DNA of 64,000 nucleotides. It comes from a virus. Below are positions 29,071 to 58,655 of the stretch, piece after piece. The notes beneath the pieces are model-generated. The model was not told where the DNA came from, did not search any database, and was given only the letters and a program-made list of their open reading frames with translations. The DNA lies in IMG/VR virus record IMGVR_UViG_3300028654_000001, positions 248,001 through 312,000 of that record. One strand, given 5' to 3'. Position 1 is the first letter of the stretch. The number at the start of each line of letters is the position of its first letter. The translations under genes were made by a program, and so were the position numbers.

Positions 29071-31446
29071 TCAGGCTTCAGCAGCGGCCGGAGAAATCTC
29101 CCCCCGAGGGGGTATGTCAGCAGGCTCCCGCTCTCGCAAGGTAATCATACAATCCCCACCATTGACGGCTTGTTTCGTTACAACAATCTTTTCAATGTCA
29201 GGGTTGTTTGGAGCTTCATAGGAGATCTTCCTGGTTGCTTTCTCTACAATCGAACGCAGAGCCCTGGCACCCGTTGGCTTCTTCTTAGCCAGAGTGGCGA
29301 TCTCGGTGAGAGCTTCTGGATCAAATTCAAGGTTGATCCCATCCATTCTGAAGAGGGCCTGAACCTGTTGCACTATACTATTCCGTGGTTTCACCAAAAT
29401 CTCGACTAACTGTTCTTCTGTTAGCTCGATAGTACTAGTAATTATAGGAAGGCGTCCCATCATCTCAGGTATGATCCCAAAGTCCAGAACATCTTGCTCT
29501 ATAACCTCAGTATAACCACGGGTTTTATCAACTTTTTCCTTTGCTACAGCCCCAAAACCCATGCTGGAACTCTTGTTCAACCTTCGAGCAACAATCTCAT
29601 CAATGCTAGCAAAGGCACCCGCGCAGATGAAGAGAATGTTCGTAGTATCCACCAAGTCAAAGGTCTGCATCCCGGCGCCAGCCTTACCCATTCCACGAGG
29701 GACTGCCACTGTCGACCCCTCGAGGAGCTTGAGGAGGGCTTGCTGAACACCCTCACCAGATACATCCCGGTACCCAGCTCGGTCACGACCGCTACCCCTG
29801 GCGATCTTGTCTACCTCGTCTAAAAACACGATTCCCCATTGAGCACGCTCCACATCTCCACCCGCATCTAATATGAGACCCTGGATGAGAGTCTCCACAT
29901 CAGCCCCAACATAACCGGCTTGTGTGAGGGTGGTTGCGTCTCCAACATGGAATGGAACGTTCAGCATCCGAGCTAACGTCTCAAAAATATGAGTTTTTCC
30001 AGTGTTATGGGTAACAGTGAAGTCGTCCAGTAGGTAGCGGTGGTCCCCATCTAAAACAAATCCAAAGTATTCCTCAGCCGGCATAGTTCGAGTCTTGAAT
30101 CCAATCCTGAGAACATTTTTACTAGACTGCCTCTCAGCTGCCTTCTTACGAGGTATTCTAGTAGGGACTTCAGAGGTACTTCCGGATATGCACATCCGAT
30201 AGTAAGCCCCTACAAATCCTGTTTGACAACTCTTTGTACAAGGTTGCGGGTAACAAGCAAAACCAAGACTCCTAGTAATGAAGGTTAGGTCCCCCACTAA
30301 GGTTTTCGACTTGTTTACGAAGTCAAAGCAACTGCATTCATCGAGAGAACCATCTGTATCGATTAACCCTGCTAGGATCTCTAACCGATCTTTCCTAGAT
30401 GCTGTTTTGTAACAATGAGGTATGAACTTGTTCTCTCCAGTAACCCTAAGTAAACCTAGGCCCTCTAATGCTTTTGCTATTGGATTCTGAGGCTTACCGC
30501 ATCCTGGCTTGTCTGGGTTGGGGGAGTAACTATCACTCTGGGTCAAGTAATAAGTTGGGCACCGTTCCCCATTAGAATCATTCGGGGATAGGGTTAATCC
30601 AAATTTAGCAGCTTGCCTCTCTAGCTCTGCAAGTATCTCTGGGTCATCTGTAGTCACACCTGGGGTGCCTCCTAATGAACCGTCACCTAGTAGGATACCT
30701 AAGAAGTAAGGGTCAATAGGGAGTTCAGTTGTAGTAGCGGTAAACTCAACTGGTACCCGGAATAACTTGTGAACCGACTTCCTAGTTCTAGACCAAGATA
30801 GCCAATCCATTAGGGCAACGTCAGAAACATCATTAGCAGGGCGGTACCCTGATCCACCATTGTATCCAGTACGAACAAGAGTAAGGATATGACCCTCATT
30901 AACTACCCAGGGCTCGCCCTTAGTTGGAACAATCTCAACCATCCCACTAGTACCCCGATGTAATTCAAGTACATTGCGAGGGGTACTATCTGGACCCATA
31001 AGCTGATCACCCACCTGAACATCCTCTACAGCTTTTAGGGTCCCATCGAACATCAGCACAAGCTGACCTTTTTGGTGGCACCCGCTCGGCCCTAGAAACA
31101 AAATATTGCTTTTCCTAATTTCCACGGGTTTTGACCCGTCAGTCGGTTGCTCAGTAGCCCACTTACGACGTTTGAAGTGGTTGTAGACCACCGTGGAGAT
31201 GTCAATCTTGGCTTGCTCTTGTCCAATCACAAATTCATCCAAGTGAGCTTTGATCTCAAAGGGCTTCTTAAGAGGTTCTTCTTTCTTAGCCTCAAAGCCA
31301 CCCTTTTCAGCACCAGCTTCAAGAGAGGCAGCAGCCTGTACAATACATCGATTGCAGATCGATGGCCCCTTCTCTGGATTTGCTACAACGAGGTTCTTAA
31401 CCTCGTTTCGGGGGCGTCCGCAAAAGTCACAGGTAGTTACTGCCAT
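29071..31446 (-). CDS. clpX: ClpX-like AAA+ unfoldase, intein-split
   Basis: 791 aa precursor; 432 aa after removal of the intein (residues 123-481), close to bacterial ClpX. N-terminal zinc finger CDFCG...CNRC, Walker A split as GPSG/TGKT, pore loop AGYVGADVE, Walker B IVFLDEVDKIA, and sensor regions are all present. The loop SSSMGFGAV corresponds to the ClpP-docking IGF loop, so docking onto host ClpP is plausible. The RKH loop of bacterial ClpX is replaced by Gly/Ala-rich sequence (GMGKAGAGM), suggesting altered substrate choice. CGGTGTA lies 13 nt before the ATG, with no Shine-Dalgarno. Confidence 0.9.
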   Translation of the reverse strand: MAVTTCDFCGRPRNEVKNLVVANPEKGPSICNRCIVQAAASLEAGAEKGGFEAKKEEPLKKPFEIKAHLDEFVIGQEQAKIDISTVVYNHFKRRKWATEQPTDGSKPVEIRKSNILFLGPSGCHQKGQLVLMFDGTLKAVEDVQVGDQLMGPDSTPRNVLELHRGTSGMVEIVPTKGEPWVVNEGHILTLVRTGYNGGSGYRPANDVSDVALMDWLSWSRTRKSVHKLFRVPVEFTATTTELPIDPYFLGILLGDGSLGGTPGVTTDDPEILAELERQAAKFGLTLSPNDSNGERCPTYYLTQSDSYSPNPDKPGCGKPQNPIAKALEGLGLLRVTGENKFIPHCYKTASRKDRLEILAGLIDTDGSLDECSCFDFVNKSKTLVGDLTFITRSLGFACYPQPCTKSCQTGFVGAYYRMCISGSTSEVPTRIPRKKAAERQSSKNVLRIGFKTRTMPAEEYFGFVLDGDHRYLLDDFTVTHNTGKTHIFETLARMLNVPFHVGDATTLTQAGYVGADVETLIQGLILDAGGDVERAQWGIVFLDEVDKIARGSGRDRAGYRDVSGEGVQQALLKLLEGSTVAVPRGMGKAGAGMQTFDLVDTTNILFICAGAFASIDEIVARRLNKSSSMGFGAVAKEKVDKTRGYTEVIEQDVLDFGIIPEMMGRLPIITSTIELTEEQLVEILVKPRNSIVQQVQALFRMDGINLEFDPEALTEIATLAKKKPTGARALRSIVEKATRKISYEAPNNPDIEKIVVTKQAVNGGDCMITLREREPADIPPRGEISPAAAEA
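30004..31080 (-). mobile_element. Intein with LAGLIDADG endonuclease in clpX Walker A
   Basis: 359 residues, Cys123 (CHQKGQLVLMFDG) to Asn481 (TVTHN), followed by Thr+1. LAGLIDADG motifs LGILLGDGSL and LAGLIDTDGS are visible. Insertion is exactly inside the P-loop. Confidence 0.9.
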
Positions 31447-37338: not shown

Positions 37339-38967
37339 TTAAAAGAACCTAAGTTGTTGATTTCCTTTAGGTTGTCTTTTAGAAGCGCCTGGGCGCTCGC
37401 GATGGGTACTCAGATCAGTAACGGGCTGGTAAGGCTCACACCCTTTTCCTGGCTCTCGTTCCCCACAAGCAGGTTCTACAACATCCAGGATCTCAGGCGC
37501 AACCGTTTCTTGGCCAGCTGATACAGGCGATCCAATCTGACTCCGGTTTCTAAGGCCGAAGCTGGTAGGTAACTCTCGTCCCTTGCCTATCTCGGATTCT
37601 TTTCCACTCAATGTCGCCTGTAAAAGCTTGTCCACTTCCGGCCAGGTTTTTAACGCCTGACCCACATTGAGCTGATCCCCTTCCACGCAAGTAGCGAGGA
37701 AAGCAGAGTATAAGTCTCGTTGAGACTTCAAACCACAGTCACACGAATGCCACCTCTGACTGAGAGACTTCTTCTCTATAGTCCCGCACCCATGGCAGGT
37801 TTGACTCAAACGAGTTGTTCTTGTTGAGAATTCAGTAACCTTTGAGGCTTTACGGCGAAGCTCAGCCATGAACATCCCAGGTGCCCGATACCCAACTGAT
37901 CTACCAAAGTTTTTCTGAAAAGATCTGTAAGATACTTTTTCTGTCCTAATATCGTCACCCAAAGTAAGGATTCGGTTAACCAAGTTACCTTGGAGGCTCT
38001 TTCGATGAGCTGCTTGCTTACGCTGAATAGATGATCTCTGTAAGGATACTTTGGTCTGTCTCTTGGAGATAACCCACTTCTTCGATCCCTTACGGATAGT
38101 TCCATCTGGGTTATAGTTGTTCGGATTATTGGATCGACGCTGACGATCCTCCTGTCTCTGAAGTTGGCGAATAGTCTCTTGTTTATCATCGAGTTCCGAA
38201 CAAAACTCCTCTAAAAGAGCTACTCCAGCTTGAGGAGCCACTACTGCAATAGTTGAAGGTCCTAAGTCTAACCCAACTACCCCGTGTCCAGGGAGGTTAC
38301 TTTCCTTTATGTATGGAAGACCCTCACAAACTAGTTGAGCATAGTACCGAAGTTTACTGCCAACTTGTCGACGGACTAGTTGAACATGTTTAATCCGGTG
38401 GGACAAACCATGGGCAGTAACCTTGTCGTTTGGGTCAATGACTGCTTTGATCCCCTTGAGCCCAAACCAATCAATATGATCCTTCTTCCATTTGACGCCG
38501 GAGTTGCTACGACCATCAATACAATTAAAAGTTCCTTTCCGTAAGAAATGTGGTCTACCACGTTTACTAAAGCTGTACCCCTGAACGATTTTGAACTCCC
38601 GAGAGGCAATAGCCATCATCGTGGAGGCGTCTAAATGACCGTCACTATTGAGCCAAGAATGAGTTAGATTAGCAGTAACCCAGTTATGAAGGTCAAACTC
38701 TCGAAAGTTAAATTCCTCATTCAACTGATTAAAGGTCTCGAACCTGGTCTTCGATTCTAATGAGCCCCTACCACCCTTTGGGAGTTTTATAGCAGTTCGG
38801 TATGCCTTGGATTCCTTCATCAAGTCCAACCGTTTGAGAGTCTCTGTCAAGCAAGCATTACCAACCATCCGAGCGACCTCAAATCGAATAGCAAGGATTC
38901 GCTCATCCCTAGGCGACGTAGCCAGAGGAAGCTCACAAACGAAGGTTGGACTTGAGTTACGAGCCAC
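37339..38967 (-). CDS. TnpB/Cas12-like RuvC nuclease
   Basis: 542 aa, GTG start. RuvC-I VVGLDLGPSTIAVV (Asp234), RuvC-II RTEKVSYRSFQK (Glu343), zinc knuckles CHGC (391-394) and CDC (409-411), and RuvC-III QRDLYSAFLA (Asp418) are all intact, so it should be an active RNA-guided-type DNase. It is longer than most IS-borne TnpB (about 400 aa) owing to an extended N-terminal half and a 124-aa tail after RuvC-III. No TnpA transposase or IS ends are seen. The repeat array lies 71 bp downstream on the same strand, and TGGTGTA lies 9 nt before the start, the phage's usual gene-start motif. I read it as a domesticated TnpB or compact type V effector. Confidence 0.8.
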   Translation of the reverse strand: MARNSSPTFVCELPLATSPRDERILAIRFEVARMVGNACLTETLKRLDLMKESKAYRTAIKLPKGGRGSLESKTRFETFNQLNEEFNFREFDLHNWVTANLTHSWLNSDGHLDASTMMAIASREFKIVQGYSFSKRGRPHFLRKGTFNCIDGRSNSGVKWKKDHIDWFGLKGIKAVIDPNDKVTAHGLSHRIKHVQLVRRQVGSKLRYYAQLVCEGLPYIKESNLPGHGVVGLDLGPSTIAVVAPQAGVALLEEFCSELDDKQETIRQLQRQEDRQRRSNNPNNYNPDGTIRKGSKKWVISKRQTKVSLQRSSIQRKQAAHRKSLQGNLVNRILTLGDDIRTEKVSYRSFQKNFGRSVGYRAPGMFMAELRRKASKVTEFSTRTTRLSQTCHGCGTIEKKSLSQRWHSCDCGLKSQRDLYSAFLATCVEGDQLNVGQALKTWPEVDKLLQATLSGKESEIGKGRELPTSFGLRNRSQIGSPVSAGQETVAPEILDVVEPACGEREPGKGCEPYQPVTDLSTHRERPGASKRQPKGNQQLRFF

Positions 38968-42000: not shown

Positions 42001-42007
42001 TACACCG
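42001..42007 (-). promoter_or_regulatory. CGGTGTA motif before the nucleotidase gene
   Basis: Nine nt before the ATG at 41991. Confidence 0.65.
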
Positions 42008-42012
42008 GGAAG

Positions 42013-42270
42013 TCACTGTCTAGCTGGTAAAAATGGAACTTCTGTCTGATCCTGAAGCTGTGGGTCTAAAGGCTCCACTGGAATTGGACTAAACTTGTCC
42101 AGTTGATTTATCTCAAGAATCTCTACATTGTGCTCTTTCAGGGCCGCCTCAAACTTAGGTAGATCCTGAACTACCAGGCAAAATGCATCGATCCCTTCGC
42201 CGATGGCAACTGTCCACTCGGGAAGTAAGATTTCACTCTGAGACTTAACCTTGAACGAATAATAGGCCAT
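42013..42270 (-). CDS. Small hypothetical protein
   Basis: 85 aa from MAYYSFKVKS (ATG at 42270), chosen because it overlaps the upstream stop by one base (TGATG) where the longer start at 42351 overlaps by 82 nt. Not recognised. Confidence 0.55.
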   Translation of the reverse strand: MAYYSFKVKSQSEILLPEWTVAIGEGIDAFCLVVQDLPKFEAALKEHNVEILEINQLDKFSPIPVEPLDPQLQDQTEVPFLPARQ

Positions 42271-43463
42271 CAGGTCAGTATCTCCACAGAAAGTCCAGAG
42301 GTAGTGATATCTTCGATCCTGAAGGCACTTATCGCCCAAACGTTTAACCACAAGGTGGCTTCGGTTACCGCCTCAATCGTCCATCTCCCGTGCATCTCCC
42401 GAGAGTGTAGCCCAAAATCAAGCAAGGGCAGCTCCAGGATGCCTGCAGACGAGTGGGTGTAGATGGCTAGGTAGTCTGGTCCAGGAACGGCTATGGTTCT
42501 GCAGCCGCGCTTCTGAAGGGCAGCAGCTAGGTTGGGCTCAGCAATCCAAAGACCCTCAGTATGACCTTGGACAGCTTCCTCGAACGGAGTCAACCGTGGA
42601 TTCAGGTTCCTATACTCGAGCATGGCCGAAGCTATACTCCGAATCCAAGAGGTGGCGATAACCGCGGTTGAAGCCGTTAGCTGGTCATACTTTAGATTGA
42701 TGGCTAATGGATCTTGGATCGGCCTACGTTGAAGGCTACTCGGGTGGACCTGAATTCTAGTATAGTCATGCTCAGAGTCAGGCTGAGCACCGATCGGAAA
42801 GTATTGAAGAAAATCTTCGACAACCCCCTTTGGGTTTTCGAAGATAGTCGGGATAACCTGCTCAATCTTACCAACTATATCCCGTCGGCCTCCACGAGAG
42901 AGGGTCAGTAATCTTGAGTCCCCCTCCTCACGAAGTCTCTCGGTTTGATTGACCCTTGAGAGAGCTCGCTCTCTCACCCTGCTCTCTAGCTGGTCCTCAA
43001 ACCTCCACATGGTTATGAAGGCCTCAATCTCAGGTTTTACGGCCTGGGACCTCTCAACCAGACGCCCATCTTCTCTGAGTACTGGCGCTGGTTGGTAAAA
43101 ATCTTCATTGCTCAGCTTGGCAATGGCCCTTCCGGTTTCACTAGAGATCATAAGGATCCCATCACCAAGCTGAGCATACTCATCAGCAAGATACTGGGCT
43201 ACGTCATCCAAACCCTCATCAAAATGGAGTTTCTCACGCAACCGCTGGGTCAACGTCTCCACGTCAATGACACCCGTGGTGAATAGGCCCCCCAGATTAG
43301 GATCCTCCTGAATCTTTTCCCTACTGCGCCTAAGTAACCCAGAGCTCGGGTTAGCTTTCGAAAGAACCCTGACATTAACCTTCCTGGATAGGGCCTGCTG
43401 TTGAGGTGTCAGGGTGGTTAGGTCAGGCATGATTCGTACTCCTACCGGCCCTACTGTGGTCAC
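42270..43463 (-). CDS. Hypothetical protein
   Basis: 397 aa (386 from the ATG at 43430). Charged helical N-terminal two-thirds; C-terminus WIAEPNLAAALQKRGCRTI and GPDYLAIYTHSSAG looks like an alpha/beta domain. No known motif. Follows the AAA ATPase gene by 17 nt. Confidence 0.55.
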   Translation of the reverse strand: MTTVGPVGVRIMPDLTTLTPQQQALSRKVNVRVLSKANPSSGLLRRSREKIQEDPNLGGLFTTGVIDVETLTQRLREKLHFDEGLDDVAQYLADEYAQLGDGILMISSETGRAIAKLSNEDFYQPAPVLREDGRLVERSQAVKPEIEAFITMWRFEDQLESRVRERALSRVNQTERLREEGDSRLLTLSRGGRRDIVGKIEQVIPTIFENPKGVVEDFLQYFPIGAQPDSEHDYTRIQVHPSSLQRRPIQDPLAINLKYDQLTASTAVIATSWIRSIASAMLEYRNLNPRLTPFEEAVQGHTEGLWIAEPNLAAALQKRGCRTIAVPGPDYLAIYTHSSAGILELPLLDFGLHSREMHGRWTIEAVTEATLWLNVWAISAFRIEDITTSGLSVEILT

Positions 43464-43480: not shown

Positions 43481-46426
43481 CTACTTGGTGGCCTTCTCTG
43501 CTGCAGTAGCCGAGATTGTCTTGAATTGAGTTGAACGACCCTTAGAAGCAAATCTGGCTCGGATACCGTCCCCAGATTCCTTGTCGAACCCTACCCAATC
43601 AATGATATTATGGATCTCATCAGACATAGTCTTGATGATACGGGGCCGCCGCGTTAGGTCCTCCAGAAGGATCTCATAGTCCAGACCCTTGCACTTTGCA
43701 TTGAAGCTTTTGACCATCGAAGCTTCAACAGCCTGTTCGATCTCACGACCTACTAGACCATCAGCTTTCTCGGCCAAAGTAGCTAGGTTGAAGTTGGATA
43801 CATCTTGCGAGAAGTTCTTTGCATGGATCTTTATGATATCGATGAGGGTTTCCTCATCAGGGATATCGAAGAAGAACCTTTCTGGCATCCTGTTGACCAT
43901 CTCCGCGGGCATGGTCTTCAGGGAGTTGGCAGTCATCACCAAACAGGCTGGAGCATTAGATTCTTGGGTCCAGGTTGAGAGGATACCCAGCAAGCGAGAG
44001 GTGGTACCCGCATCTGATTGAGCCGATGAATCCCCACCGGATAGGCTCTTCTCAGCTTCATCTATCCACATAATGCAATTATGTGTGATCAATCCATTTG
44101 CAATAAATGAATGAGTGTCCTCACCCTCACAAACCAAGTCATAAACATCTTGAGTCCCAATGGGTTCAATGCTCTTCACCTGTACCCACCTACAATCAGC
44201 CTCAAGAATACGCTTGAGCTCAGATCCGCTAGACCCGAACTTCTCAATGTAGTTAATGAGATGACGTTCACTAACTGGAACTCTACCACTCTCATAAGAC
44301 CAGGTAACCCCAGACGAAGCACCTAAATCTGAGAACTTGGTACCAGACGCCTTTCTGGCCTCATGTAATAGTTGACCACAAGCAAACCCTGAACCTCGAT
44401 CAAAACCAATAGATGAAGAACTAATTTGTGTGGCCTTGACACTCTTTTCAACAAGGTACTCCCTAATAATTCCGGCTAAGTGAACAGCTCTACTACCGGT
44501 AATCTCCATTGAAGGGAAGTCAAACTTAGAAGGTATTACCCCCAGTGATTGGATTAGTTGACGACCCAATAACTGACGCTGAGCCCACATCTTCGGATGT
44601 TTGACAGTAAGAGCGATCTTATTACGGCCAATACATCCATCAGCATCAATCCACCCCGCAAGGAAAGCAGCTCGTACCTCCGGTGGTGCTGTCAAGATAT
44701 GCTTACGTGCTTCTCTGAGAAATTCAGCTGCTAACTGATTTGTAACTAAAGATGTCCAACAGGTTTTGAAAACTGAATCTTCAGTTAGTCCAGTTAGTAT
44801 AGGATCCTTAGAGTTATTCTCATGACGTGTTGCTTGAAGTCCAAATTGATTGATTAACCCGTGCTCAAAATAGGAGAGTAACCCCTCAGACGTGTTAACC
44901 AAACCAATTCCGTCATTAGCGCCGATGAAGCCATCACCCTCAAGTATACCTAGAACCCAACCTAGTTCTGTAGACCAAACCCTTGGGAGCTTTGGTACAA
45001 TGGCATCCCGAAAACCGCCACCCCCCCTACGAAACTCCATTCTTCCCTGGGCAGCTTCATAATTACGCATTCCAACTGGATGGAACCTAGTGCAATCTGA
45101 ATCCCCGGGATACTTGGCTATAGAAACCGCCATCATATCCCCAGGTAAAAGCTCGTCAGTGCTGACCCAATCTGGTAACCCACCTCGCATAATATAGTGG
45201 AGGTGGTTTTCTGTAGCGTTCAAGTAGTAACCATTAGCAGCATCAATACGGAAGGCTTCTGCTTGACGACATGTGATAGCACTCACCCGGGTTGAACCCA
45301 ATCGAAGTGTCTTTTCATTCCAACATTGAACGGAAAGATCAGTGGTTCCAGACAAGGACTCTTGCCATAAAACACCAATTGGTTTTGAAGTCCCATCTGC
45401 AAGAGTGACCTCGGTCTCTTCCGTCACGCATGGGGATACCGACTCCACGATCCTCAGAGCCCGATACAAGTTAGCTTCGGACTCACCCACTGCAGAGTTT
45501 CTAAGTTTTCCCATCTCGAACTGAATGAGAGGGAGCTTCCATTCTGTGGCAAGAGCCTTGGCTGAAAGTGACTTACCACAACCATAAACCCCCATGAGAA
45601 GGACCCCGCGGGGTGGTACCAAACCGAATGCCTGCCCCTCTTCAGTCCAACAAGATTGAGTACTACGTGCCCATTCTTTGAAGCACTCGGCCCCACCAAC
45701 CGAGTCAAAGCTAACTTTGCTCGAGTCGACGATCTGTACCAGATCGGTTTTCTTAATCTGGTTCCGCTTGTACTTACTAATCAAGACCGGGTCTACACGC
45801 TTTGGATCTACGGAGTCCTTCTTGGTTCTCACCACTGATTGAGTGATGGCAGCCTCTACCTCAAAGCTAGTAAACCCACGGAATAACTTGCCGATATTGG
45901 AGGGCACAGGTGTCTGAAGTTGCCTACAGAAATCTGTAACAAGAGTAGTCAACTCTTCTTCCTGGAGCCCCTTAGTGTCAACGATCTCAAAGTACCGAGC
46001 AAGCTTCTCTGGAATGACTCGCCGAGTGCTCACAAATATAAGGCACTTCACAACTCTGAGATCCACATGGAGTTGATGGATGATGTTCAGAACACGCCGG
46101 ACAGCTTGTTCATCTCGAAAGATCCTTTCAGGATCAGTGAAGATGTAGAAGTGCTCCTTGTCTTTCGGGTCATCCTTGTAGACCTGAGTAAGAGCCTCAT
46201 GGAGCTCGCGTGGAGTAGCCTCCGTATGACTCCTTTGAGTCCAATCTCTAGTCAGATCACCAATCTTCTTCAACCCGAGGCACCAATTGTAGACCCATGT
46301 TCGGTCTTCATGCTTATTCATCTGGAGTTGGAAGTCTTTGATGAAGTTATCCTCTTCATCGGTGACTACATAAACCAGACGGGTAAGTGCCCGTAGGTGA
46401 TGAACCATCTCAGCATTCAGGGTCAT
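43481..46426 (-). CDS. Ycf46-like AAA+ ATPase, intein-split
   Basis: 981 aa precursor; about 530 aa after removal of the intein (333-783). N-terminal 230 aa form the divergent domain of Ycf46-type proteins. Walker A GVYGCGKS (279-286), LRNSAVGESEANLYRAL, Walker B IMWIDEAEKSLSG after the splice point, then VMTANSLKTMP and MPERFFFDIPD complete the AAA core, as in chloroplast/cyanobacterial Ycf46. Such proteins are unassigned chaperone-like ATPases. The neighbouring Ycf35/DUF1257 and DUF2997 genes are known companions of Ycf46-like ATPases. AGGAG precedes the ATG, and TGGTGTA lies 35 nt upstream. Confidence 0.8.
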   Translation of the reverse strand: MTLNAEMVHHLRALTRLVYVVTDEEDNFIKDFQLQMNKHEDRTWVYNWCLGLKKIGDLTRDWTQRSHTEATPRELHEALTQVYKDDPKDKEHFYIFTDPERIFRDEQAVRRVLNIIHQLHVDLRVVKCLIFVSTRRVIPEKLARYFEIVDTKGLQEEELTTLVTDFCRQLQTPVPSNIGKLFRGFTSFEVEAAITQSVVRTKKDSVDPKRVDPVLISKYKRNQIKKTDLVQIVDSSKVSFDSVGGAECFKEWARSTQSCWTEEGQAFGLVPPRGVLLMGVYGCGKSLSAKALATEWKLPLIQFEMGKLRNSAVGESEANLYRALRIVESVSPCVTEETEVTLADGTSKPIGVLWQESLSGTTDLSVQCWNEKTLRLGSTRVSAITCRQAEAFRIDAANGYYLNATENHLHYIMRGGLPDWVSTDELLPGDMMAVSIAKYPGDSDCTRFHPVGMRNYEAAQGRMEFRRGGGGFRDAIVPKLPRVWSTELGWVLGILEGDGFIGANDGIGLVNTSEGLLSYFEHGLINQFGLQATRHENNSKDPILTGLTEDSVFKTCWTSLVTNQLAAEFLREARKHILTAPPEVRAAFLAGWIDADGCIGRNKIALTVKHPKMWAQRQLLGRQLIQSLGVIPSKFDFPSMEITGSRAVHLAGIIREYLVEKSVKATQISSSSIGFDRGSGFACGQLLHEARKASGTKFSDLGASSGVTWSYESGRVPVSERHLINYIEKFGSSGSELKRILEADCRWVQVKSIEPIGTQDVYDLVCEGEDTHSFIANGLITHNCIMWIDEAEKSLSGGDSSAQSDAGTTSRLLGILSTWTQESNAPACLVMTANSLKTMPAEMVNRMPERFFFDIPDEETLIDIIKIHAKNFSQDVSNFNLATLAEKADGLVGREIEQAVEASMVKSFNAKCKGLDYEILLEDLTRRPRIIKTMSDEIHNIIDWVGFDKESGDGIRARFASKGRSTQFKTISATAAEKATK
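44078..45430 (-). mobile_element. Intein with LAGLIDADG endonuclease in the Ycf46-like ATPase
   Basis: 451 residues, Cys333 (CVTEETEVTLADG) to Asn783 (LITHN), followed by Cys+1 just ahead of Walker B. LAGLIDADG motifs LGILEGDGFIG and LAGWIDADGC are visible, so homing is probably intact. Confidence 0.9.
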
Positions 46427-46461
46427 ATTCTCCTGGACTCCATCAAGTGTTCGTCAGGGTA

Positions 46462-46468
46462 TACACCA
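46462..46468 (-). promoter_or_regulatory. TGGTGTA motif before the Ycf46-like gene
   Basis: 35 nt before the ATG with AGGAG in the gap; lies just downstream of a strong terminator. Confidence 0.65.
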
Positions 46469-46478
46469 CAAAACAGGA

Positions 46479-46514
46479 AAGGCCCACTAAATTCTTTCTA
46501 ATTTAGTGGGCCTT
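46479..46514 (-). terminator. Rho-independent terminator
   Basis: Perfect 15-bp stem (AAGGCCCACTAAATT with its complement) and 6-nt loop, followed on the minus strand by a T-rich CCTGTTTT. It ends the DUF2997-DUF1257 unit, 22 nt beyond the stop at 46536, and the next unit's TGGTGTA motif lies 11 nt further on. Confidence 0.9.
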
Positions 46515-46535
46515 CTGCCGAACAATCAGGCTTGC

Positions 46536-46880
46536 TCACGCTTCTCGTGAGCAACACAAAACGTAGACTTGCTGACCTTTTACGGTCTCAGTCTCCGTGC
46601 TCACCGTGGTACCCTTTTGGAAGTGGAACTCCTTGCGTTCGGTAACCGTGTAGTGCTGACGAAGGGCGGAAATCTTTGCATCCGTTGCATCACGGTTATT
46701 ATCTATATCGGCACCAATAACTTGACCCGTGCGGGTGTCAATGGTGGTTCCGTCGAAGGCACCAGTCTGAAGGTTGAAACGAGTCCCCTCCTGGCGGTAT
46801 TTGATACCCTGTGAATCTAGAGTCTTGGCCAGGATCTTTGTGTCCTTCATCTGAGTGGTGATACTCGCTCTGTGCGACAT
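46536..46880 (-). CDS. DUF1257 (Ycf35-like) protein
   Basis: 114 aa. MSHRASITTQMKD with later ATDAKISALRQHYTV follows the DUF1257/Ycf35 pattern (MSHF.T..T...D). Family function unknown, but it co-occurs with Ycf46-like ATPases and DUF2997, both adjacent here. Strong Shine-Dalgarno AAGGAGAG. Confidence 0.75.
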   Translation of the reverse strand: MSHRASITTQMKDTKILAKTLDSQGIKYRQEGTRFNLQTGAFDGTTIDTRTGQVIGADIDNNRDATDAKISALRQHYTVTERKEFHFQKGTTVSTETETVKGQQVYVLCCSREA

Positions 46881-46942
46881 AGTACTATACTCTCCTTGAT
46901 TGGTTGAATCTTTACCCTAATAGGTGTTCAAAGTTTAGTGGA

Positions 46943-47131
46943 TTAGCTACTGGCGATCTCGTGGACTTCATCAGCCAGATCACTGGGCAACTTTTCGTCC
47001 TTCTCTAAAGTTCCAGTCCCAGCGATGTAGTTTCGAAGGATGTGGTCACAACCCTCTGAGGTTGCACCATTAATCTTCTCAACTTCCATGTGACCGTCTA
47101 CAAAAACTCGTTCCTTCCACGTAACCGTCAT
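46943..47131 (-). CDS. DUF2997-like small protein
   Basis: 62 aa. VDGHMEVEKINGATSEGCDHI resembles DUF2997 (beta-hairpin then G..C). Its position beside DUF1257 and a Ycf46-like ATPase supports the call. GAGG lies just before the ATG, and CGGTGTA 28 nt upstream. Confidence 0.6.
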   Translation of the reverse strand: MTVTWKERVFVDGHMEVEKINGATSEGCDHILRNYIAGTGTLEKDEKLPSDLADEVHEIASS

Positions 47132-47159: not shown

Positions 47160-47166
47160 TACACCG
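47160..47166 (-). promoter_or_regulatory. CGGTGTA motif before the DUF2997 gene
   Basis: 28 nt before the ATG at 47131, with GAGG near the start. Confidence 0.6.
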
Positions 47167-47168
47167 AT

Positions 47169-47834
47169 TCACTTTGAACCACCAAGGCGAATCGTAGCCC
47201 CCGCCTCAACAACAACTTCTGAAGAATGTCTTTGCTTCGGGGCTGCCCAAGGGTCATTGCTAGGATCCCCTTTTACACTAGGTTTACTTCCACGTCCACT
47301 ACCATTTGGGAATTCTGTCGATGAAGAAGGATTGCCCGGTAAATAAAGACCGCTACGATTCGATGTATTCATCAAAGCCAAAGATTCTAGGTTACCTCTA
47401 GCTGGAATTACTAGCGGGGTCCCGACCTCCTTAGACAGAGGTTGAGTCTCACTCTCAGGTTGATTTTCGGTACCTTCCGACTCACTGGCCTCTTTTATGA
47501 GAACCTCTTCTGTCGGTACTGCTAGGAATGAAACTGGCTGGTCAGGTTGCTCTTTTGCTGTGGGAATTTCAGAAGAAATTTCCCAAGAGTCCAAAACGGG
47601 ATGGAACTCTTTGCTGGAAATGTCCCTGAATCTAGGGTCTCCTGTCTCCATCTTCGGTACCTTAAGAAAAAGACGGTCAAGCCAAGTGGTGACCCGTCTC
47701 TCAAACTTGGTGGTTCCGTAGAGACTTCGCGTGCAATCTGGTTGAAGGCACCGATTGCACCAAAACATTTTGAAGTCCTCTGTCGGGACTTTCAACTGAT
47801 TGCATTCACCTAAGTTATCTCTACGATCTGGCAC
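47169..47834 (-). CDS. Hypothetical Cys-containing, Ser/Pro-rich protein
   Basis: 221 aa, GTG start preceded by GAGGG. FWCNRCLQPDCTRS (residues 24-37) may bind zinc; the rest is low-complexity Ser/Pro/Glu with no fold evident. Lies 8 nt after the polymerase stop. Confidence 0.5.
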   Translation of the reverse strand: MPDRRDNLGECNQLKVPTEDFKMFWCNRCLQPDCTRSLYGTTKFERRVTTWLDRLFLKVPKMETGDPRFRDISSKEFHPVLDSWEISSEIPTAKEQPDQPVSFLAVPTEEVLIKEASESEGTENQPESETQPLSKEVGTPLVIPARGNLESLALMNTSNRSGLYLPGNPSSSTEFPNGSGRGSKPSVKGDPSNDPWAAPKQRHSSEVVVEAGATIRLGGSK

Positions 47835-47842
47835 GTTAACCC

Positions 47843-50800
47843 TCAGAGGTTATGGTCATCCATCAGTACTTTGAAAAGATTCACGTTCACTTTAATTTGC
47901 AAAGCCGGATCAATCAAGGTCTCGTTGTTACCACTCTCGAGAAGATGAAGAACCCTCCCTTCTGGATCCCGACACCTCATGCAGGCTGCACTCACTTGTT
48001 TTACCGTATTCTGTGTTAGATTGTAGGGGCTGATATGGTATATTAGAACCCCATTACCATTATCAGACTTAGACTTCCCATTGCCGTTAGGTGGAACTGA
48101 AGTTCGTGCCGGAGGGAGGTTTGATGCCAGATTGGGTTCCGGAGTCTCAACTTGAATTGAAGTGGCTGTCTGTGGAACCGAAGTCTCAGTAGTAGAAGTG
48201 GTTGAACTGACTGGACTTGAGTTGGAGGGAGGAGGATCCTGCGCGGGAGGCGACTGGGGAGTCTCCCCCTTCCGCATGTAGTCTGGTACCAAATGCCCCT
48301 CTAGCCAAGGGGGTATTTGCTGATAGTACCTTCCGTTTACTTCCACGTCAGTTTTCTTAGGTGACTTGCCCTTCTCCGGAATATACCCGTGCATGATCTT
48401 GTAGTAGTCATACTTGGGATCCCAGTGCAGGTCGAGTAAGGGCTCAACCTCAAGATGGACTGGCCACCCACGAGCCATCTTCGCCGGTGAGCACATGATA
48501 TCAGTGAGGACTGGCATTACCTCCATGAGCTTCTCATGTTGTACCTCAAAAACAAGCTCATCATGTACTGTCAACAAGAACCTGACGGTATTATCCTGTA
48601 ACCACCCCATCTTGTAGAACTTCTTGTAGAGCATGACCATCGACATCTTCATGATGTCGGCACCCGAGTTCTTAGTAATAACCCCGTCAGCTTCAAATCG
48701 ATGAAGGGGATCTTTGACCGAAAGTGTGTAGGTCTCCTCCACTTGGTCAAGAATCTTGATCTTCTTGATCTTCTTGTGGCCGTAAATAGGATTCCGAAGG
48801 GTTACCCCAACTTGCTTGCATAAGTCATCAAGCGTATAAACAGTGACCTTACCCCCATTGACGAGTCGACGGTACAGAACATAGCTTGAATTGTCTCTGA
48901 AATCGGACTGTACCCACTTACCACGACTCAAAAAGTCTTGTACCAAAAAGTCAGGGGCAAACATATCATGGAACTTAGGTCCCCGGTTCTGCACCCCTTG
49001 TACATTACGCTCAAACATTCTGCGATTGATGTCAAGACGGTAACTAGTAGTATCGTCTCCGTTCTTATCAGACCCACTCCGATAGGGTCCACGAATGACT
49101 GATTCCACCCCAAGGGTACGAAGGAGCAACTTCAAGTCCTCAAGTAAGGGGCGCTGGCACAAATGGATATTGTAGGGATTCCCTTTTGCACTCACCAGTG
49201 GAGGCTTATGACCATCAGAATCCATGACACCACGGATAAAAGATTTCCGGTGCTCCAACCTCTCTTGAAGAATACGTGCTGGTAATCTCTTGGTGTGCGC
49301 TGTTGCCCCAGGGGTCAACCCTAATCGTTCAAGAAAACAAGTAAGTTCCACATTTTGGACTATCACTTGATGTCTTGTTGATTCTTTATTCTTTGGAGTA
49401 TGGGTGTTAGTCCTGAATTGCGTATTAAGCCCACAGGCCCCCCAGAAGTCTCGACACCTTTTGATAGCTATAGCCTCATGTGAACCAAAACAGGTCCTAA
49501 ATATCCCATCATTGAAGCAACCGTCTCCAATATAGCGTCCAACCCAATACCAGAACTCGGAGTGACTACCTCCAAGTTGAAAGTGTCTCTGTGCTTTTTC
49601 TACCCGAGTTACTGAATGTAGCTTAGGTGGGTTGAACTCTATAGGGTAGCAAAGTGCAGTTGCAGACCTGTCACCTGGACTCAGGTTTTTGAAGTTTATC
49701 CAAGAGTACCCAGAATCCGACACAACCAATTGTTTATGTCGAATATCACAACGAACGGTTGTTCCATCACTCAAAGTGATCTCAGCCAACCGGCACTCAC
49801 CCATAGAATGCGCTGTTGCCTTAGCCCATTTTGATCCAGTCCAAACCTGAACTAACTTATTGGCTGCAGATAAATCCCCGATCTTTTTCAACCCACTTTT
49901 GGTTGTGATAAGACTGGCATAAAAATTGCACCCCTGGATCGGATAATTCAGAGAATATCTCTCACAGGCAGCTACCACTGCCTTATCCTGGCTGTCAACA
50001 TCCGGAACAGCCATCCATCTACCGAATGCTGTATAGACCCCCTTGTCCTTCTTGACAAGAGCTTTCTGTTTTTTGACCCACTCATTGAAAATGGGCATTG
50101 CCTTATCGAATGCGGCTTTCCTCCGAGCTGCCTCCTGCTGGGTACACTTGGTAGCCCGCATGATGGCCATCGTCCCACCACCGTAAACCAAACTGAAATT
50201 CGCCATTTTTCCTTGTTGGCGTTGCTGTTTGGTGATCTCACTACCGAAAAAAGCCTTGGCCGTGATGGTATGCAAGTCCCCCGTACCCTCATTGAACTCC
50301 TTAATCCAAGCAGGCTCTCTCGATAGATTGGTGACGATTCTAAGCTCTTCACCAGCGAAGTCAATCTTGACCATCGTGTAACCCTCACGGGCTACGAAGG
50401 CTTTTCTCAATGCTGTAGCTACCTTAGGCTTCTTCTCATCATACGTGGAGGGGATGCCGTGGATCGGGATTGCACCATACCCTTGAGAAGCTTCCCCAGC
50501 CGGAGCTGTGAACCTACCTGTTGGTGCACCAGTCTGCTTGAATTGGTACCGAAGTTCTTGATTTTCATCACAATTGTTCAGCATACCTTCAAGATAAGTG
50601 CCAATGACCTTCTCTATCTGGCGATACTTGACAATTACCAATAAAATCGGGTTTATATCAGGGTGTTCTTCAACCAACTTTTCAAGAGTATCGGCATCTG
50701 TCTTGTACTGTTGAGAACCAACGGCCGAAGTCTTATCTGGCTTTGGTTCGATGTTGAGCCCCGTCGAACTAGCAAAGAGGAAGTTGCTTAGTTGTTGAGT

Positions 50801-52093
50801 GGACTGAGGGTCAAAGTTTTTGAAACCCTTGAGTTCAGCTAACCCAACAATTTGCTTGCGATAGAGGTCAGCTTCTTCCTTGGCTTCGGTGAGGAGATTT
50901 CTAACATACTCGTGATCAATCTTGATTCTCAGCCTCTCCATCCACCGTAGGACTTGGCTGACTTGTTTCTCGAGTCGATAGATGTTGGCATATCGAGGGT
51001 CCTTAGCAACCGAGAGGATGCTAGGCTTGTCACACAGTAGAAAGGTGCAGATAGCATCCGAGCAAGCGTAGTAGCGGGCCTCGCTCGGTTTCAAAGTAGC
51101 AAACTTGATCTCCCTACCCTTGACGAACAAGTCTTTCAACTTAATCATTTCATATTGGATAGGGGACCCTTTGGGATCTTCGTCGACGAGCTCGTGCAAC
51201 GGATTCTTAGGATCAGCCTTGATGTACCCTCTGATCGTAGTACCCTTCTTGTCGGTGACCCACAGATTGGCCTTAGCTTTCTCCTTGAGACCCAGTGACT
51301 TGTCACCGGTGAAGATGCAGTAGTAGATGAGAAGACCATCCTCAAAGGACTCTGGGTGCCAAAAGTCGATCCCAGTAACCGGATACAAGAATTCCTGGTC
51401 GAACTTAGCGTGCCAGAAGTAGATTTTCACTTTTCCTGGACGTTCCAAGAGAGGACTACCAAGTGGATCGGTCTTCTTCCCATCGGCGCTAATCACTGGC
51501 TGTGCTGCTAGACACAACCTTTTAATCTCTCTCCCGGCTTCAATCGGATTTACGTTGATAATCTCTTCTCCGGGAGCCGCATGGCGAACTGGAACATAGT
51601 ACCCAGTGTACCCATCGTAACTAAGACAGTAACCCACAATCTTGTGAACGGTTGTTGGAATGACATCGGGTCTGGTATCATTCCAATGCTCAACTGGAAC
51701 CTTGATCTCAGATTGTTTTTTCCAATAAATCCTATTATCTAGACCCTCAGTTTCTAAGTCGAGGGAGCACTTACCGGCTTTGATGGCTTGATCGACAATC
51801 TCAGTTAGCTCAGCCAGGGTCTCAACTACCACGAACTTGTGGTAGTTCATCCAGGCCTTCATAATGTCGGTGGCATCGGGTTCCAGATTAGCACCCATGC
51901 TTTCCATAATGGAATCGAAGTCATCCCCAGAGGTATCTGAATCTGGTGGGTTGAATTCTGGAGAACTAATCGTCTGAGGAATGGGCAAGGGTTCATCATC
52001 CCCTGTCGCTTCCGCAAGAGTTGGTGGTTGACTTGACTGAATTTCTACCTGTCCAAGAATCGCGGCCAACTCATCATCGTCAATTGACGGCAT
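47843..52093 (-). CDS. Family A DNA polymerase with 3'-5' exonuclease, intein-split
   Basis: 1416 aa precursor; about 995 aa after intein removal (722-1142). Exonuclease motifs: CSLDLETEGL, WHAKFDQEFL and YYACSDAICT. Polymerase motif A VKIDFAGEELR, motif B KMANFSLVYGG, and motif C TVHDELVFEV follow. No 5' nuclease domain is seen, as in phage replicative family A enzymes. After the core comes a Pro/Ser/Thr-rich linker (about 1260-1340) and a small C-terminal domain (AACMRCRDPEG), unusual for the family and perhaps a partner-docking site. It lies between the zinc-primase/helicase genes and the Ycf46 block. Confidence 0.9.
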   Translation of the reverse strand: MPSIDDDELAAILGQVEIQSSQPPTLAEATGDDEPLPIPQTISSPEFNPPDSDTSGDDFDSIMESMGANLEPDATDIMKAWMNYHKFVVVETLAELTEIVDQAIKAGKCSLDLETEGLDNRIYWKKQSEIKVPVEHWNDTRPDVIPTTVHKIVGYCLSYDGYTGYYVPVRHAAPGEEIINVNPIEAGREIKRLCLAAQPVISADGKKTDPLGSPLLERPGKVKIYFWHAKFDQEFLYPVTGIDFWHPESFEDGLLIYYCIFTGDKSLGLKEKAKANLWVTDKKGTTIRGYIKADPKNPLHELVDEDPKGSPIQYEMIKLKDLFVKGREIKFATLKPSEARYYACSDAICTFLLCDKPSILSVAKDPRYANIYRLEKQVSQVLRWMERLRIKIDHEYVRNLLTEAKEEADLYRKQIVGLAELKGFKNFDPQSTQQLSNFLFASSTGLNIEPKPDKTSAVGSQQYKTDADTLEKLVEEHPDINPILLVIVKYRQIEKVIGTYLEGMLNNCDENQELRYQFKQTGAPTGRFTAPAGEASQGYGAIPIHGIPSTYDEKKPKVATALRKAFVAREGYTMVKIDFAGEELRIVTNLSREPAWIKEFNEGTGDLHTITAKAFFGSEITKQQRQQGKMANFSLVYGGGTMAIMRATKCTQQEAARRKAAFDKAMPIFNEWVKKQKALVKKDKGVYTAFGRWMAVPDVDSQDKAVVAACERYSLNYPIQGCNFYASLITTKSGLKKIGDLSAANKLVQVWTGSKWAKATAHSMGECRLAEITLSDGTTVRCDIRHKQLVVSDSGYSWINFKNLSPGDRSATALCYPIEFNPPKLHSVTRVEKAQRHFQLGGSHSEFWYWVGRYIGDGCFNDGIFRTCFGSHEAIAIKRCRDFWGACGLNTQFRTNTHTPKNKESTRHQVIVQNVELTCFLERLGLTPGATAHTKRLPARILQERLEHRKSFIRGVMDSDGHKPPLVSAKGNPYNIHLCQRPLLEDLKLLLRTLGVESVIRGPYRSGSDKNGDDTTSYRLDINRRMFERNVQGVQNRGPKFHDMFAPDFLVQDFLSRGKWVQSDFRDNSSYVLYRRLVNGGKVTVYTLDDLCKQVGVTLRNPIYGHKKIKKIKILDQVEETYTLSVKDPLHRFEADGVITKNSGADIMKMSMVMLYKKFYKMGWLQDNTVRFLLTVHDELVFEVQHEKLMEVMPVLTDIMCSPAKMARGWPVHLEVEPLLDLHWDPKYDYYKIMHGYIPEKGKSPKKTDVEVNGRYYQQIPPWLEGHLVPDYMRKGETPQSPPAQDPPPSNSSPVSSTTSTTETSVPQTATSIQVETPEPNLASNLPPARTSVPPNGNGKSKSDNGNGVLIYHISPYNLTQNTVKQVSAACMRCRDPEGRVLHLLESGNNETLIDPALQIKVNVNLFKVLMDDHNL
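48668..49930 (-). mobile_element. Intein with LAGLIDADG endonuclease in the DNA polymerase
   Basis: 421 residues, Cys722 (CNFYASLITTKSG) to Asn1142 (GVITKN), followed by Ser+1 within the YPIQG/SGADIMK helix. LAGLIDADG-like VGRYIGDGCF and RGVMDSDGH are present. The penultimate residue is Lys rather than the usual His, an atypical splice junction. Confidence 0.85.
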
Positions 52094-55556: not shown

Positions 55557-58500
55557 TCATTTATTTGAGGTATCTCTTAGAGATTGCAGCAAATCCTTGA
55601 TGTCATTCTCGCTTCGATCAAACTTTAGAGCTCCGGCAGCAGCTTCCCCGATGACCTGATCGATCAGCCCTTTCTTCCGACGAAGCTTCTGAACTACCTT
55701 GCTGTCAATCGTTTCAGCCTTTTTACCTGAGAGGCCGGGTCGTCTCGTAATCAAGTGAACAGCAAGAACTCGAGGGTGCGGTGACCCAATTCGAATCATC
55801 CGACCAAGAAGCTGAACATACCTGCCCCAAGACCACGGGGAATCAAACAGAATCATCGCAGAAGCGGCCTGGAGGTTAATTGCCTCACTACCGGCATCGG
55901 TGATGATGACTACCCTGACTTTACTGCTAAGATCCTGAAATTGGTCTTGAGCACTCTTTCTATTTTTACCGCTCTGTGAGCCGGATATGGAAACACTCTT
56001 GATACCCTCTTTGGTCAAAATAGCTTGAAGTCTAGGGATATGACTGGCAAACCGAGTGTAGACAATGACCTTCTCACCGTCGAACTCTTCAGACAGTAAT
56101 TCAACAAGAGCCGCTTCTTTGGAGCTTCGCCCCTCGAAGTCAGACCCCCCACCCTCTTCAAACTTCAGTAAAGAAAGAGAATTACAGATCTCTTGAATGT
56201 AAATGAGGCTTGTAAGTTGTTTGGTGTCCTTGTAGTCACGAAGTTCACCGTCTCCAAGTTCAAGAAGCCCTCCCAGTGCTTCTGCGTACTTTCTCTCTTC
56301 CACTTTGGAGAGTTCACACACAACTTCGCGAGTTGTGAGGGCTGGGAGTTCTGTAGAAACATCCTGTTTCGCCCGCCCGTAGAAGAATGGGTCGATAGTT
56401 TGTCTGAAGTGTTGTAGGTTCTTATACCCAACAACAATAGGTACCTTTCCCCCACCCTTAATCCGCTGCATCTCAGTGACGCAGTAAACATTAAGGAATG
56501 CATTCTTGGTACCGAAGGTCTCCGGCCTAATGACCTTGTAGATACCAAAACCCTCCATCAAGTGATTCTGAAGGAGAGTGGCGGTTAAACCCCAGACACG
56601 TTTAGCTTTACCAGACAAGAACTTGCAAGTTTGATGAGTCTTAGTTGTCGGATTTTTGCAGGCTGTGATCTCATCGAAGATCACAGTAAGCCGTGGAATA
56701 CCTGATGTCAGCTTGTCGAGGAAACCCAGGCCAGCAACAGCTTGAGTACCCTTTTTGGCCCCCACCGGCGGTGGCTCCTTGGTAATCCCTTGATCCCAAT
56801 CACGAACCACCCCGTGATAGTTGACGACAAGGACTCCAGGCCCTGTATGCCTAAACCAAGCAGAGTAGGCTTCTTTACGCTGATCTAGGGTACCAGAAGC
56901 AATGAAGTATTTGATCCCAATCGAGAACTTGTCAATCTCAGAAGCCCACTGTCCAATAGCCGACTTCGGACACACTACCATGACCTTCATGGTAGGATCC
57001 CTCTCCCAGATATAACAGAGAGCACCAATAGCTTGGAGGGTGTTGTGGTTGATGAATCCGTTTCCTGCGAAGCAATGCTCAGGATCGTCAATCTCCAAGT
57101 CCATCACAGGAGCTGACTTATACTCAACGGATACAATTGGGTCGTAGTAAAAATGGCGCTGAGTGACTTGAAGCACTCTCCGGTACTCATTTGTACTTGA
57201 TAAACCCATCTTATAGGAGACCTCCAAAAGCTTCTGTAGCCACTGGTAGCTCGGATCACGATATCCGCACAGAATATTCTTCAAAGTTGACCTGAAGCAT
57301 TCTCCAAACTGCTTCAAACCTGAACCAACTCGATTGGAATTTGCTCCCTGCTTAGAAGTAGCTTGCAGGATTAGTTTTTTGAGAGCACCAACCTCGGAGG
57401 TGAAGTTTGGTATTAGGTCTTTGTTCGGATTGGAGGATCGTGTAAGACTAGACTTCAACAAGGCTACCTTGCGCTTGGATCGAAGCCCAATCTCCCTCTG
57501 AAAAACCCTAGCATCGTCACCAAAGAACGTTACCCTCCAGTAGGTATGAGAGTACCCTTTAACTTTCTTTGGCTGACGGTTAGAAACCACACCAAAGCGC
57601 AAGAGTAACAATTGAACCTGCTTGGCTAATTCCTCTGAGGCAGTACTAAACTCTATGCCACCCCCATTAGATACAGAACACTCAGCCTCAATGAGAGCAG
57701 ACAAGAAGCATCGAATTGCCTCCCTTGTACCCCGCAGTATCAAGTCGGGTATACTCTTCTCTGCAGAAAGAACTTCCCTGACCCCGCAAGATATCAGATA
57801 ACGACGTATGTCCTTTGATGAAACGGCTACGAGCTTGTCTTTCGCCTTACTGTTGGCATTCCCCTTCCAACCAAATATAGCATACAACAGATCCCGTATC
57901 TCACGGTGGTTGTCGGGGTTCGACTCCAGGTGTTGAGTAATCTGGACGCTTGTTGGATGCCTATTACCCTCGCTGATTAACCATCCCAATAAGGTGGCTA
58001 ACTTGGGAGTTAGACGGTTTGGGTAGGTATACCCACGTGAACATTGAGCTAGATCAAAGTCAATGATGGGCTCTTTAGTTGGAAATGGTACCTCACAGCG
58101 ATCTATACAAATGTGGTCTCCAATCTTGAGGTCAGGGAGCTTGACAAAACCCTCTCTAGAAGTCTGCCTAGCGTATACAGGATGGATCAAACTCCCTTCA
58201 AGTTGATAACCATTTCTAGTTGTCAACTTGATAGTTGGCTTGGTACCTCCCCAGTAGAAACTCTTAACTGGAGCCACCCTTGATCCTGTCCACACAGATA
58301 CTGGATAATCTAAGTTGTAAAAACCCTCAGACTTAACCCCCTTCGGCTTCAAAGAATCAATCGTTAGTAGTCCGAGATCAGTATTCAGTAGAGTGCTGCC
58401 GGTGACACACTTCCCCAAACCAGTTCCATCCCCCAGAATCATTCGATTTACCCTAAGTAAGTGGTAAATCCCCTGAACCTGATAGTATCTGAGCCTTAGA

Positions 58501-58655
58501 GGTTGGGTAGTCCCATCAATTCCGACAATCTCCTCACGGAGCATCTTGGTCGGTCTCAATTGACAAGTCTTACTAGCCCGAACTTGCTTTAGCTGTTCGT
58601 AGATCTGTTCAAATTCGGTAGCCCGAGTGGCTACCGGTATTGCTGCTGTCGGCAT
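55557..58655 (-). CDS. SNF2-type helicase, intein-split
   Basis: 1032 aa precursor; about 576 aa after intein removal (83-538). Motif I ILGDGTGLGK is joined to TLQAIG, Ia VMVVCPKSAIGQW, II VIFDEITACKN (DEIT), III LTATLLQNH, IV VIVYTRFASH, V VIITDAGSEAINLQ and VI LGRMIRIGS. This order matches SWI2/SNF2 family ATPases used for dsDNA translocation or annealing; in phages such proteins help recombination or replication-fork rewinding. Adjacent to the helicase/loader genes. Confidence 0.85.
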   Translation of the reverse strand: MPTAAIPVATRATEFEQIYEQLKQVRASKTCQLRPTKMLREEIVGIDGTTQPLRLRYYQVQGIYHLLRVNRMILGDGTGLGKCVTGSTLLNTDLGLLTIDSLKPKGVKSEGFYNLDYPVSVWTGSRVAPVKSFYWGGTKPTIKLTTRNGYQLEGSLIHPVYARQTSREGFVKLPDLKIGDHICIDRCEVPFPTKEPIIDFDLAQCSRGYTYPNRLTPKLATLLGWLISEGNRHPTSVQITQHLESNPDNHREIRDLLYAIFGWKGNANSKAKDKLVAVSSKDIRRYLISCGVREVLSAEKSIPDLILRGTREAIRCFLSALIEAECSVSNGGGIEFSTASEELAKQVQLLLLRFGVVSNRQPKKVKGYSHTYWRVTFFGDDARVFQREIGLRSKRKVALLKSSLTRSSNPNKDLIPNFTSEVGALKKLILQATSKQGANSNRVGSGLKQFGECFRSTLKNILCGYRDPSYQWLQKLLEVSYKMGLSSTNEYRRVLQVTQRHFYYDPIVSVEYKSAPVMDLEIDDPEHCFAGNGFINHNTLQAIGALCYIWERDPTMKVMVVCPKSAIGQWASEIDKFSIGIKYFIASGTLDQRKEAYSAWFRHTGPGVLVVNYHGVVRDWDQGITKEPPPVGAKKGTQAVAGLGFLDKLTSGIPRLTVIFDEITACKNPTTKTHQTCKFLSGKAKRVWGLTATLLQNHLMEGFGIYKVIRPETFGTKNAFLNVYCVTEMQRIKGGGKVPIVVGYKNLQHFRQTIDPFFYGRAKQDVSTELPALTTREVVCELSKVEERKYAEALGGLLELGDGELRDYKDTKQLTSLIYIQEICNSLSLLKFEEGGGSDFEGRSSKEAALVELLSEEFDGEKVIVYTRFASHIPRLQAILTKEGIKSVSISGSQSGKNRKSAQDQFQDLSSKVRVVIITDAGSEAINLQAASAMILFDSPWSWGRYVQLLGRMIRIGSPHPRVLAVHLITRRPGLSGKKAETIDSKVVQKLRRKKGLIDQVIGEAAAGALKFDRSENDIKDLLQSLRDTSNK
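57042..58409 (-). mobile_element. Intein in the SNF2-type helicase motif I, decayed endonuclease motif
   Basis: 456 residues, Cys83 (CVTGSTLLNTDLG) to Asn538 (FINHN), followed by Thr+1. Endonuclease motifs are LLGWLISEGNRH and LSALIEAECSV, which lack the usual final Gly and have altered acidic residues, so homing may be lost while splicing residues remain. Confidence 0.85.

Follow-up and report, generated by a model that had tools for sequence, protein, structure and literature searches.

The 64,000-nucleotide stretch of DNA analysed here (the window, bases 248001-312000 of the 512,571-bp virus record IMGVR_UViG_3300028654_000001, in which a terminase match is also present) raises the question of whether three adjoining genes form a viral version of the Ycf46-DUF1257-DUF2997 module, and of what such a module might do in a phage. 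A preliminary description of the sequence had proposed that these three families lie side by side here, and all three genes were found on the minus strand, each preceded by a Shine-Dalgarno-like sequence:

43481-46426, minus strand: Ycf46-type AAA+ ATPase gene, 981 amino acids with its intein and 530 once spliced.
46536-46880, minus strand: DUF1257 (Ycf35-type) protein, 114 amino acids, assigned by profile comparison; AlphaFold2 model with a predicted local distance difference test score (pLDDT) of 78.
46943-47131, minus strand: DUF2997-like protein, 62 amino acids, with a single cysteine (Cys28) at the family's invariant position.

The locus encodes the Ycf46-DUF1257-DUF2997 module in a diverged, viral version. 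Searched singly against Pfam, NCBIfam and PHROGs, the two small proteins gave no match to DUF1257 or DUF2997, a PADLOC scan likewise named neither, and genome-wide searches of the phage record with PF06868 and PF11211 returned no match. By Pfam's curated cut-offs the window proteins therefore fall outside both families, and this lack of a single-sequence match is what would favour a resemblance by chance only. However, a hidden Markov model (HMM) of phage DUF1257 proteins, of which most of those tested lie above Pfam's cut-off, had the gene at 46536-46880 as its top window match (E=0.0016 before relatives were added), which strengthened to E~1e-18 on iteration. Profile-profile comparison of the window clade, i.e., the window and its viral relatives, with phage DUF1257 gave 97.3% and a score of 67.6 (best of 150 column shuffles, 19.2). 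The equivalent comparison with DUF2997 gave 95.1% and a score of 41.0 (best of 150 column shuffles, 15.7), after P~0.01 with only the window and the relative L009. Two clade members, L095 and L096, match Pfam DUF2997 at E=2e-4 and 5e-5, slightly below the curated cut-off (23.4 bits versus 24.1 for L096), and a third, L092, matches Pfam DUF1257 (PF06868) at E=0.011. Since the clade profiles match verified families and L095 and L096 bridge the gap, the identification from sequence profiles is firm: the small proteins are homologues of DUF1257 and of DUF2997, the latter with its Gly...Cys core, even though they lie below the formal Pfam threshold. Chance likeness was rejected because the real profile scores lie far above those of shuffles, and it is made extremely improbable by the bridging sequences and by the same gene order in 11 genomes. 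Thus the HMM comparison on which the preliminary description had staked its assignment succeeds once 10 relatives enter the profiles.

These relatives were found by scanning IMG/VR with alignments of the spliced ATPase; a viral scan with the intein-bearing open reading frame (ORF) as query gave no match. Identity is 50-71% for eight of these contigs (L092 nearly duplicates L093, and L094 is the same as L009) and ~30% for three, and all of them are intein-free. In each, an ORF of ~60-70 amino acids and another of ~110-150 amino acids precede the ATPase in the same order, and the arrangement DUF2997-DUF1257-ATPase is kept in 11/11 clade members. In a tree of 93 ATPases from DUF-bearing loci (quick search, midpoint root), the window lineage, one of several viral groups, comprises 11 ATPases, all of them viral, that group with full support on a long branch.

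A survey of phage genomes for the same cluster, suggested in the preliminary description, recovered it in named phages as well as in these viral relatives. In Rhizobium phage RHph_I4, DUF1257 and DUF2997 are already annotated in GenBank beside the ATPase, while homologs at the matching place in Aeromonas HJ05, Pseudomonas PA_L9, and Rhodobacter RcKickapoo exceed Pfam cut-offs except for the RcKickapoo DUF1257; a total of 21 phage records match the DUF1257 query. RHph_I4/L338C, HJ05, SM1-like Pseudomonas, and Rhodobacter phages carry the same ATPase-DUF1257-DUF2997 module in tailed phages, but their gene order is ATPase-x-DUF1257-DUF2997, as opposed to DUF2997-DUF1257-ATPase in the window clade, and their ATPase lineage is distant in the tree, with 20-30% identity. 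For mycobacteriophage SchoolBus, which has a related ATPase, the one neighbour scanned had no DUF match and a profile search of the locus found no DUF1257. The module is already known in phages, and the window lineage is a separate, deep, all-viral branch inside a replication operon.

The preliminary description had also reported an intein in the ATPase, which is borne out by Pfam matches above cut-off (AAA, Intein_splicing, and LAGLIDADG_3) and by the intein-free relatives:

44078-45430, minus strand: intein, residues 333-783 (451 amino acids) with a LAGLIDADG endonuclease, between Walker A and Walker B and directly ahead of the latter, inserted between SVSP and CIMWIDEAEK.

Excision of residues 333-783 (from C1 to the HN/C junction) rejoins SVSP to CIMWIDEAEK, which contains Walker B, and leaves 530 amino acids. 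The splicing models score above their cut-offs (Pfam Intein_splicing 44.3 versus 35.8; TIGR01443 27.7 versus 15.6), and the N-terminal intein model TIGR01445 scores below its own. The element has an N-terminal Cys, a C-terminal HN/C, splicing blocks, and an empty allele in relatives, as expected of an intein; L089-L099 lack it, and in relatives at 50-71% identity the joint is uninterrupted. Within ~30 kb of the window, four genes bear inteins, namely ClpX (29071-31446), DNA polymerase A (47843-52093), an SNF2 helicase (55557-58655), and the ATPase (43481-46426). The ATPase and the polymerase of the L094/L009 relative are shorter, apparently without inteins.

Once spliced, the ATPase consists of an N-terminal degenerate AAA domain (~10-205) without Walker A and a C-terminal, active-type AAA domain (~240-460; GVYGCGKS, IDE, TAN) that retains Walker A, Walker B, and sensor 1. 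In profile-profile comparison, the N-terminal ~200 residues score 41.5 against the C-terminal AAA (best shuffle, 19.0). A degenerate N-terminal AAA followed by a complete classic one is the Ycf46-type arrangement. No Ycf46 model was among the NCBIfam or Pfam results, and the Ycf46-type label rests on this architecture and on likeness to a cyanobacterial plasmid module, that of Pseudanabaena, with whose ATPase the window protein shares 29% identity across 475 aligned positions. The structure predicted for the intein-free relative L094 (pLDDT 88, predicted template modelling score 0.83) aligns end to end with p97, NVL/Rix7, and Pex1/Pex6 (Z ~24-25, 460-474 residues). Together with sequence profiles, this predicted model would give the ATPase a p97/Pex1-Pex6-like double AAA fold with a dead first domain (D1) and a live second one (D2); Pex1/Pex6 also have a degenerate D1. 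The predicted fold matches p97/Cdc48, Pex1/Pex6, and NVL/Rix7 over its whole length, but the module ATPase is without their N-domain and is bacterial or viral, and the phage clade is without the hydrophobic pore-loop residue.

The AAA domain also matches PADLOC models of IetA, from the Iet anti-phage system (E 2e-10), which would suit a host-takeover or counter-defence factor akin to defence-type AAA proteins. However, the similarity is confined to the common AAA domain, no IetS-like partner was noticed, and the partner genes in the window are DUF1257 and DUF2997. Moreover, the module is also found in cells and plastids and the phage copy is part of a replication operon, so such a role is quite improbable.

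The function of the three families had been described as unexplained, in agreement with a full-text literature search in which DUF2997 came up in only two papers and no assigned function was found. The comparison of small proteins offers some clues. The DUF2997 cysteine is present in 87/87 distinct collected sequences, window included, and is the sole fully invariant column; Cys28 of the window protein aligns with it, and Gly13 with a Gly kept in 85/87. One viral ORF (L103/L022, one contig) fuses DUF1257 to a DUF2997-like domain (E 2e-27 and 1.4e-4), which supports direct contact of the two. The AlphaFold2 model of DUF1257 has the order alpha-beta4-alpha-beta2. A nameless 147-residue viral entry in BFVD, with a TM score of 0.57 to this model and the length of the RHph_I4 DUF1257, was not used as evidence.

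The reading that we tentatively prefer is that the ATPase is an AAA+ remodeller served by DUF1257 and DUF2997 as its adaptor. The cysteine of this adaptor would link the remodeller to iron-sulfur (Fe-S) or thiol clients, and in the phage the remodeller would act on replication or nucleotide enzymes. The ATPase would be active only after intein splicing and would form a p97/Pex1-Pex6-like hexamer, with a first AAA ring that is dead and purely structural and a second that hydrolyses ATP. In complex with it, DUF1257 and DUF2997 would serve as a joint adaptor, and the invariant cysteine of DUF2997 would bond clients or an iron-sulfur partner as a disulfide, a persulfide, or a metal/Fe-S ligand, after which ATP hydrolysis would remodel or recharge the client. 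The usual cellular partner would be a radical-SAM enzyme or a ferredoxin.

For this cellular side, a genome scan showed that many bacteria and some archaea encode the ATPase; an earlier genome scan with a single viral ATPase had found no relative, and the alignment query found them. By the profiles used, and with plasmid loci included, both DUFs are present in 32/84 cellular loci and one DUF in 17 more, and in six whole genomes the only copy of the DUF2997 gene is at the ATPase locus. Of the cellular ATPase loci with DUFs, 25/45 have a same-strand radical-SAM gene no more than 6 kb away, versus 3/35 of those without DUFs (Fisher p=1e-5, which is optimistic since rows are related and phyla repeat). 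The radical-SAM-adjoining loci span at least seven phyla, and the corresponding figures for viral loci are 5/43 with DUFs versus 0/82 without. The operon order is radical-SAM - ATPase - DUF1257 - DUF2997 in Planctomycetota and Melainabacteria, and radical-SAM - ATPase - DUF2997 in Spirochaetota. The presence of radical-SAM beside the module in bacteria (e.g., loci L170, L187, L179, L226, L240, L222, L173, L208, and L233-L235) is a strong candidate for a functional link. At two of these loci, from Treponema and from a Spirochaetales genome (L173, L208), the ATPase-DUF2997-radical-SAM genes adjoin tail-tube-like genes that, judging by sequence, probably belong to a contractile injection system.

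The same operon orders, together with an invariant cysteine in so short a protein, might instead indicate that a radical-SAM or other Fe-S enzyme (provided by the host in the case of this phage) matures DUF2997, which would be a small substrate or carrier that the ATPase and DUF1257 deliver or release. This is unlikely, as no radical-SAM gene is nearby in 20/45 DUF-bearing cellular loci, in 38/43 viral loci, or in the window clade, and no modification of DUF2997 is known.

Cyanobacteria and plastids hold the same three families as the window, and in cyanobacterial plasmids all three genes are close together. In cyanobacteria the ferredoxin gene fed7 adjoins DUF2997 and ycf35 (PMC4284462), and in the Pseudanabaena plasmid GrpE and Hsp70 are beside the module. 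In contrast, the phage copy resides in a replication operon, bears an intein, and has lost motor residues. Among red algal plastids, keeping ycf35 and ycf46 correlates with marine habitat (PMC5940233).

In the phage clade, the module has DNA polymerase A on one side and NT5C/RecA-like/ThyX genes on the other, with DnaB, primase, and SNF2 genes above it. Its immediate neighbours in the window are:

47169-47834, minus strand: upstream neighbour with an EC...C-x2-C-x4-C-x-R-S motif, a possible Zn or Fe-S site, kept in at least 10/11 clade members.
42270-43463, minus strand: neighbour of ~390 amino acids directly downstream of the ATPase, conserved in the clade.

On the remodeller reading, the phage partner would be the replication or nucleotide enzymes encoded alongside, possibly reached via the four-cysteine protein at 47169-47834, which from its sequence is a candidate partner of the module. 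The downstream neighbour has no Pfam match. DUF3150 (PF11348) members belong to a protein cluster found in 13 viral module loci (L031, L053, L054, L088, L157, L016, L018, L052, L100, L101, L133, L151, and L042), and the literature search found no mention of DUF3150; the downstream neighbour was tried as a DUF3150 protein and did not match. Elsewhere on the minus strand of the window, a 542-residue protein (37339-38967) has a weak match to a Cas12f1-like/TnpB nuclease domain (E 6e-5, below cut-off), and an 805-residue protein (5084-7501) has a weak match to a von Willebrand factor A-like domain.

The constant place of the module in the replication/nucleotide operon of clade members could also mean that it is a replisome-specific assembly factor, i.e., that the ATPase and its adaptors load or disassemble phage replication proteins without redox chemistry, the cysteine being structural. 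In some other phages, genes for DNA ligase, sliding clamp, RNase H, or ThyX are beside the module, and in Rhizobium and Agrobacterium phages deoxynucleoside monophosphate kinase and RNase H1 are near it. Yet the bacterial and plastid module adjoins radical-SAM or ferredoxin genes rather than replication genes, and a purely structural lone cysteine in a protein of ~65 amino acids would hardly be invariant in 87/87 sequences, which renders a pure replisome factor a credible but doubtful alternative.

Several observations weigh against the cysteine-linked remodeller. The pore-loop residue before VG is A/G/R in the window clade and L/F/I/Y/W in most other family members, and the RKGR finger motif is cut to one arginine, so that one arginine finger is lost; other members of the ATPase family mostly retain both the hydrophobic pore loop and the paired fingers. 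Missing from the window clade are thus two traits of a p97/Pex1-Pex6-like unfoldase, namely a hydrophobic or aromatic residue in pore loop 1 and a pair of arginine fingers in the active ring, which makes ordinary polypeptide threading less probable for this lineage than for its relatives. The DUF1257 model had no match in PDB or BFVD at E<0.001, which leaves its role unconstrained. A more distant DUF2997-like branch with His-rich tails, outside the 87 (L031, L053, L054), has no cysteine. A search for a radical-SAM gene near the module found none in the window clade, and the only radical-SAM-like gene found in the phage genome (G000:C1:133062-133424, L248, 258 amino acids) is far off and below Pfam's cut-off. 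Finally, the genomic neighbourhood points to no particular client. A broader version of the remodeller reading is rather doubtful as a whole. In it, the module would be a widespread and as yet undescribed redox-linked AAA+ system with a dead-D1, p97-like ATPase and with the adaptor cysteine as active thiol. Cellular versions would be coupled to radical-SAM/Fe-S enzymes, whereas the jumbo-phage version, its motor having ceased to thread, would be rewired to replication proteins.

The preliminary description had regarded the phage version as a small, tractable form of the module. This holds in part, but the proteins are of about the usual size, their motor residues have diverged, and two transcription units are likely, as the following signals suggest:

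46478-46515, minus strand: terminator-like hairpin with a 16-bp stem, between DUF1257 and the ATPase.
47160-47165, minus strand: GGTGTA, 34 nucleotides upstream of DUF2997, a putative phage promoter or leader element.
46462-46467, minus strand: GGTGTA, 41 nucleotides upstream of the ATPase and past the hairpin; 8/8 clade loci examined have the motif in this gap.

Hairpins with a different stem sequence occupy the same DUF1257-ATPase gap in L089, L090, L091, L092, and L094. The minus strand of the window has 28 copies of GGTGTA and the plus strand 7, and 12/28 minus-strand copies fall in the 3% of sequence that is non-coding, each 6-44 nucleotides before a start codon (p=2e-11); further minus-strand examples are at 42006, 38982, 31465, 18007, 11208, 7539, and 4554. 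GGTGTA is thus a candidate phage promoter or leader motif, and the module is probably transcribed as two units, both under this one phage element. Because the phage lineage has diverged in its motor residues, it may be an unfaithful model of the cellular form.

Versions of the module occur in bacteria, archaea, plastids, and viruses alike. The value of this locus lies in testable clues more than in phage occurrence alone, since comparison provides several handles: the invariant cysteine, the radical-SAM/ferredoxin neighbour, the DUF1257-DUF2997 fusion, the p97-like double-ring motor predicted for the ATPase, and phage relatives ready for knock-out. As cultured Rhizobium, Rhodobacter, and Pseudomonas phages bear the module, these clues are testable now.

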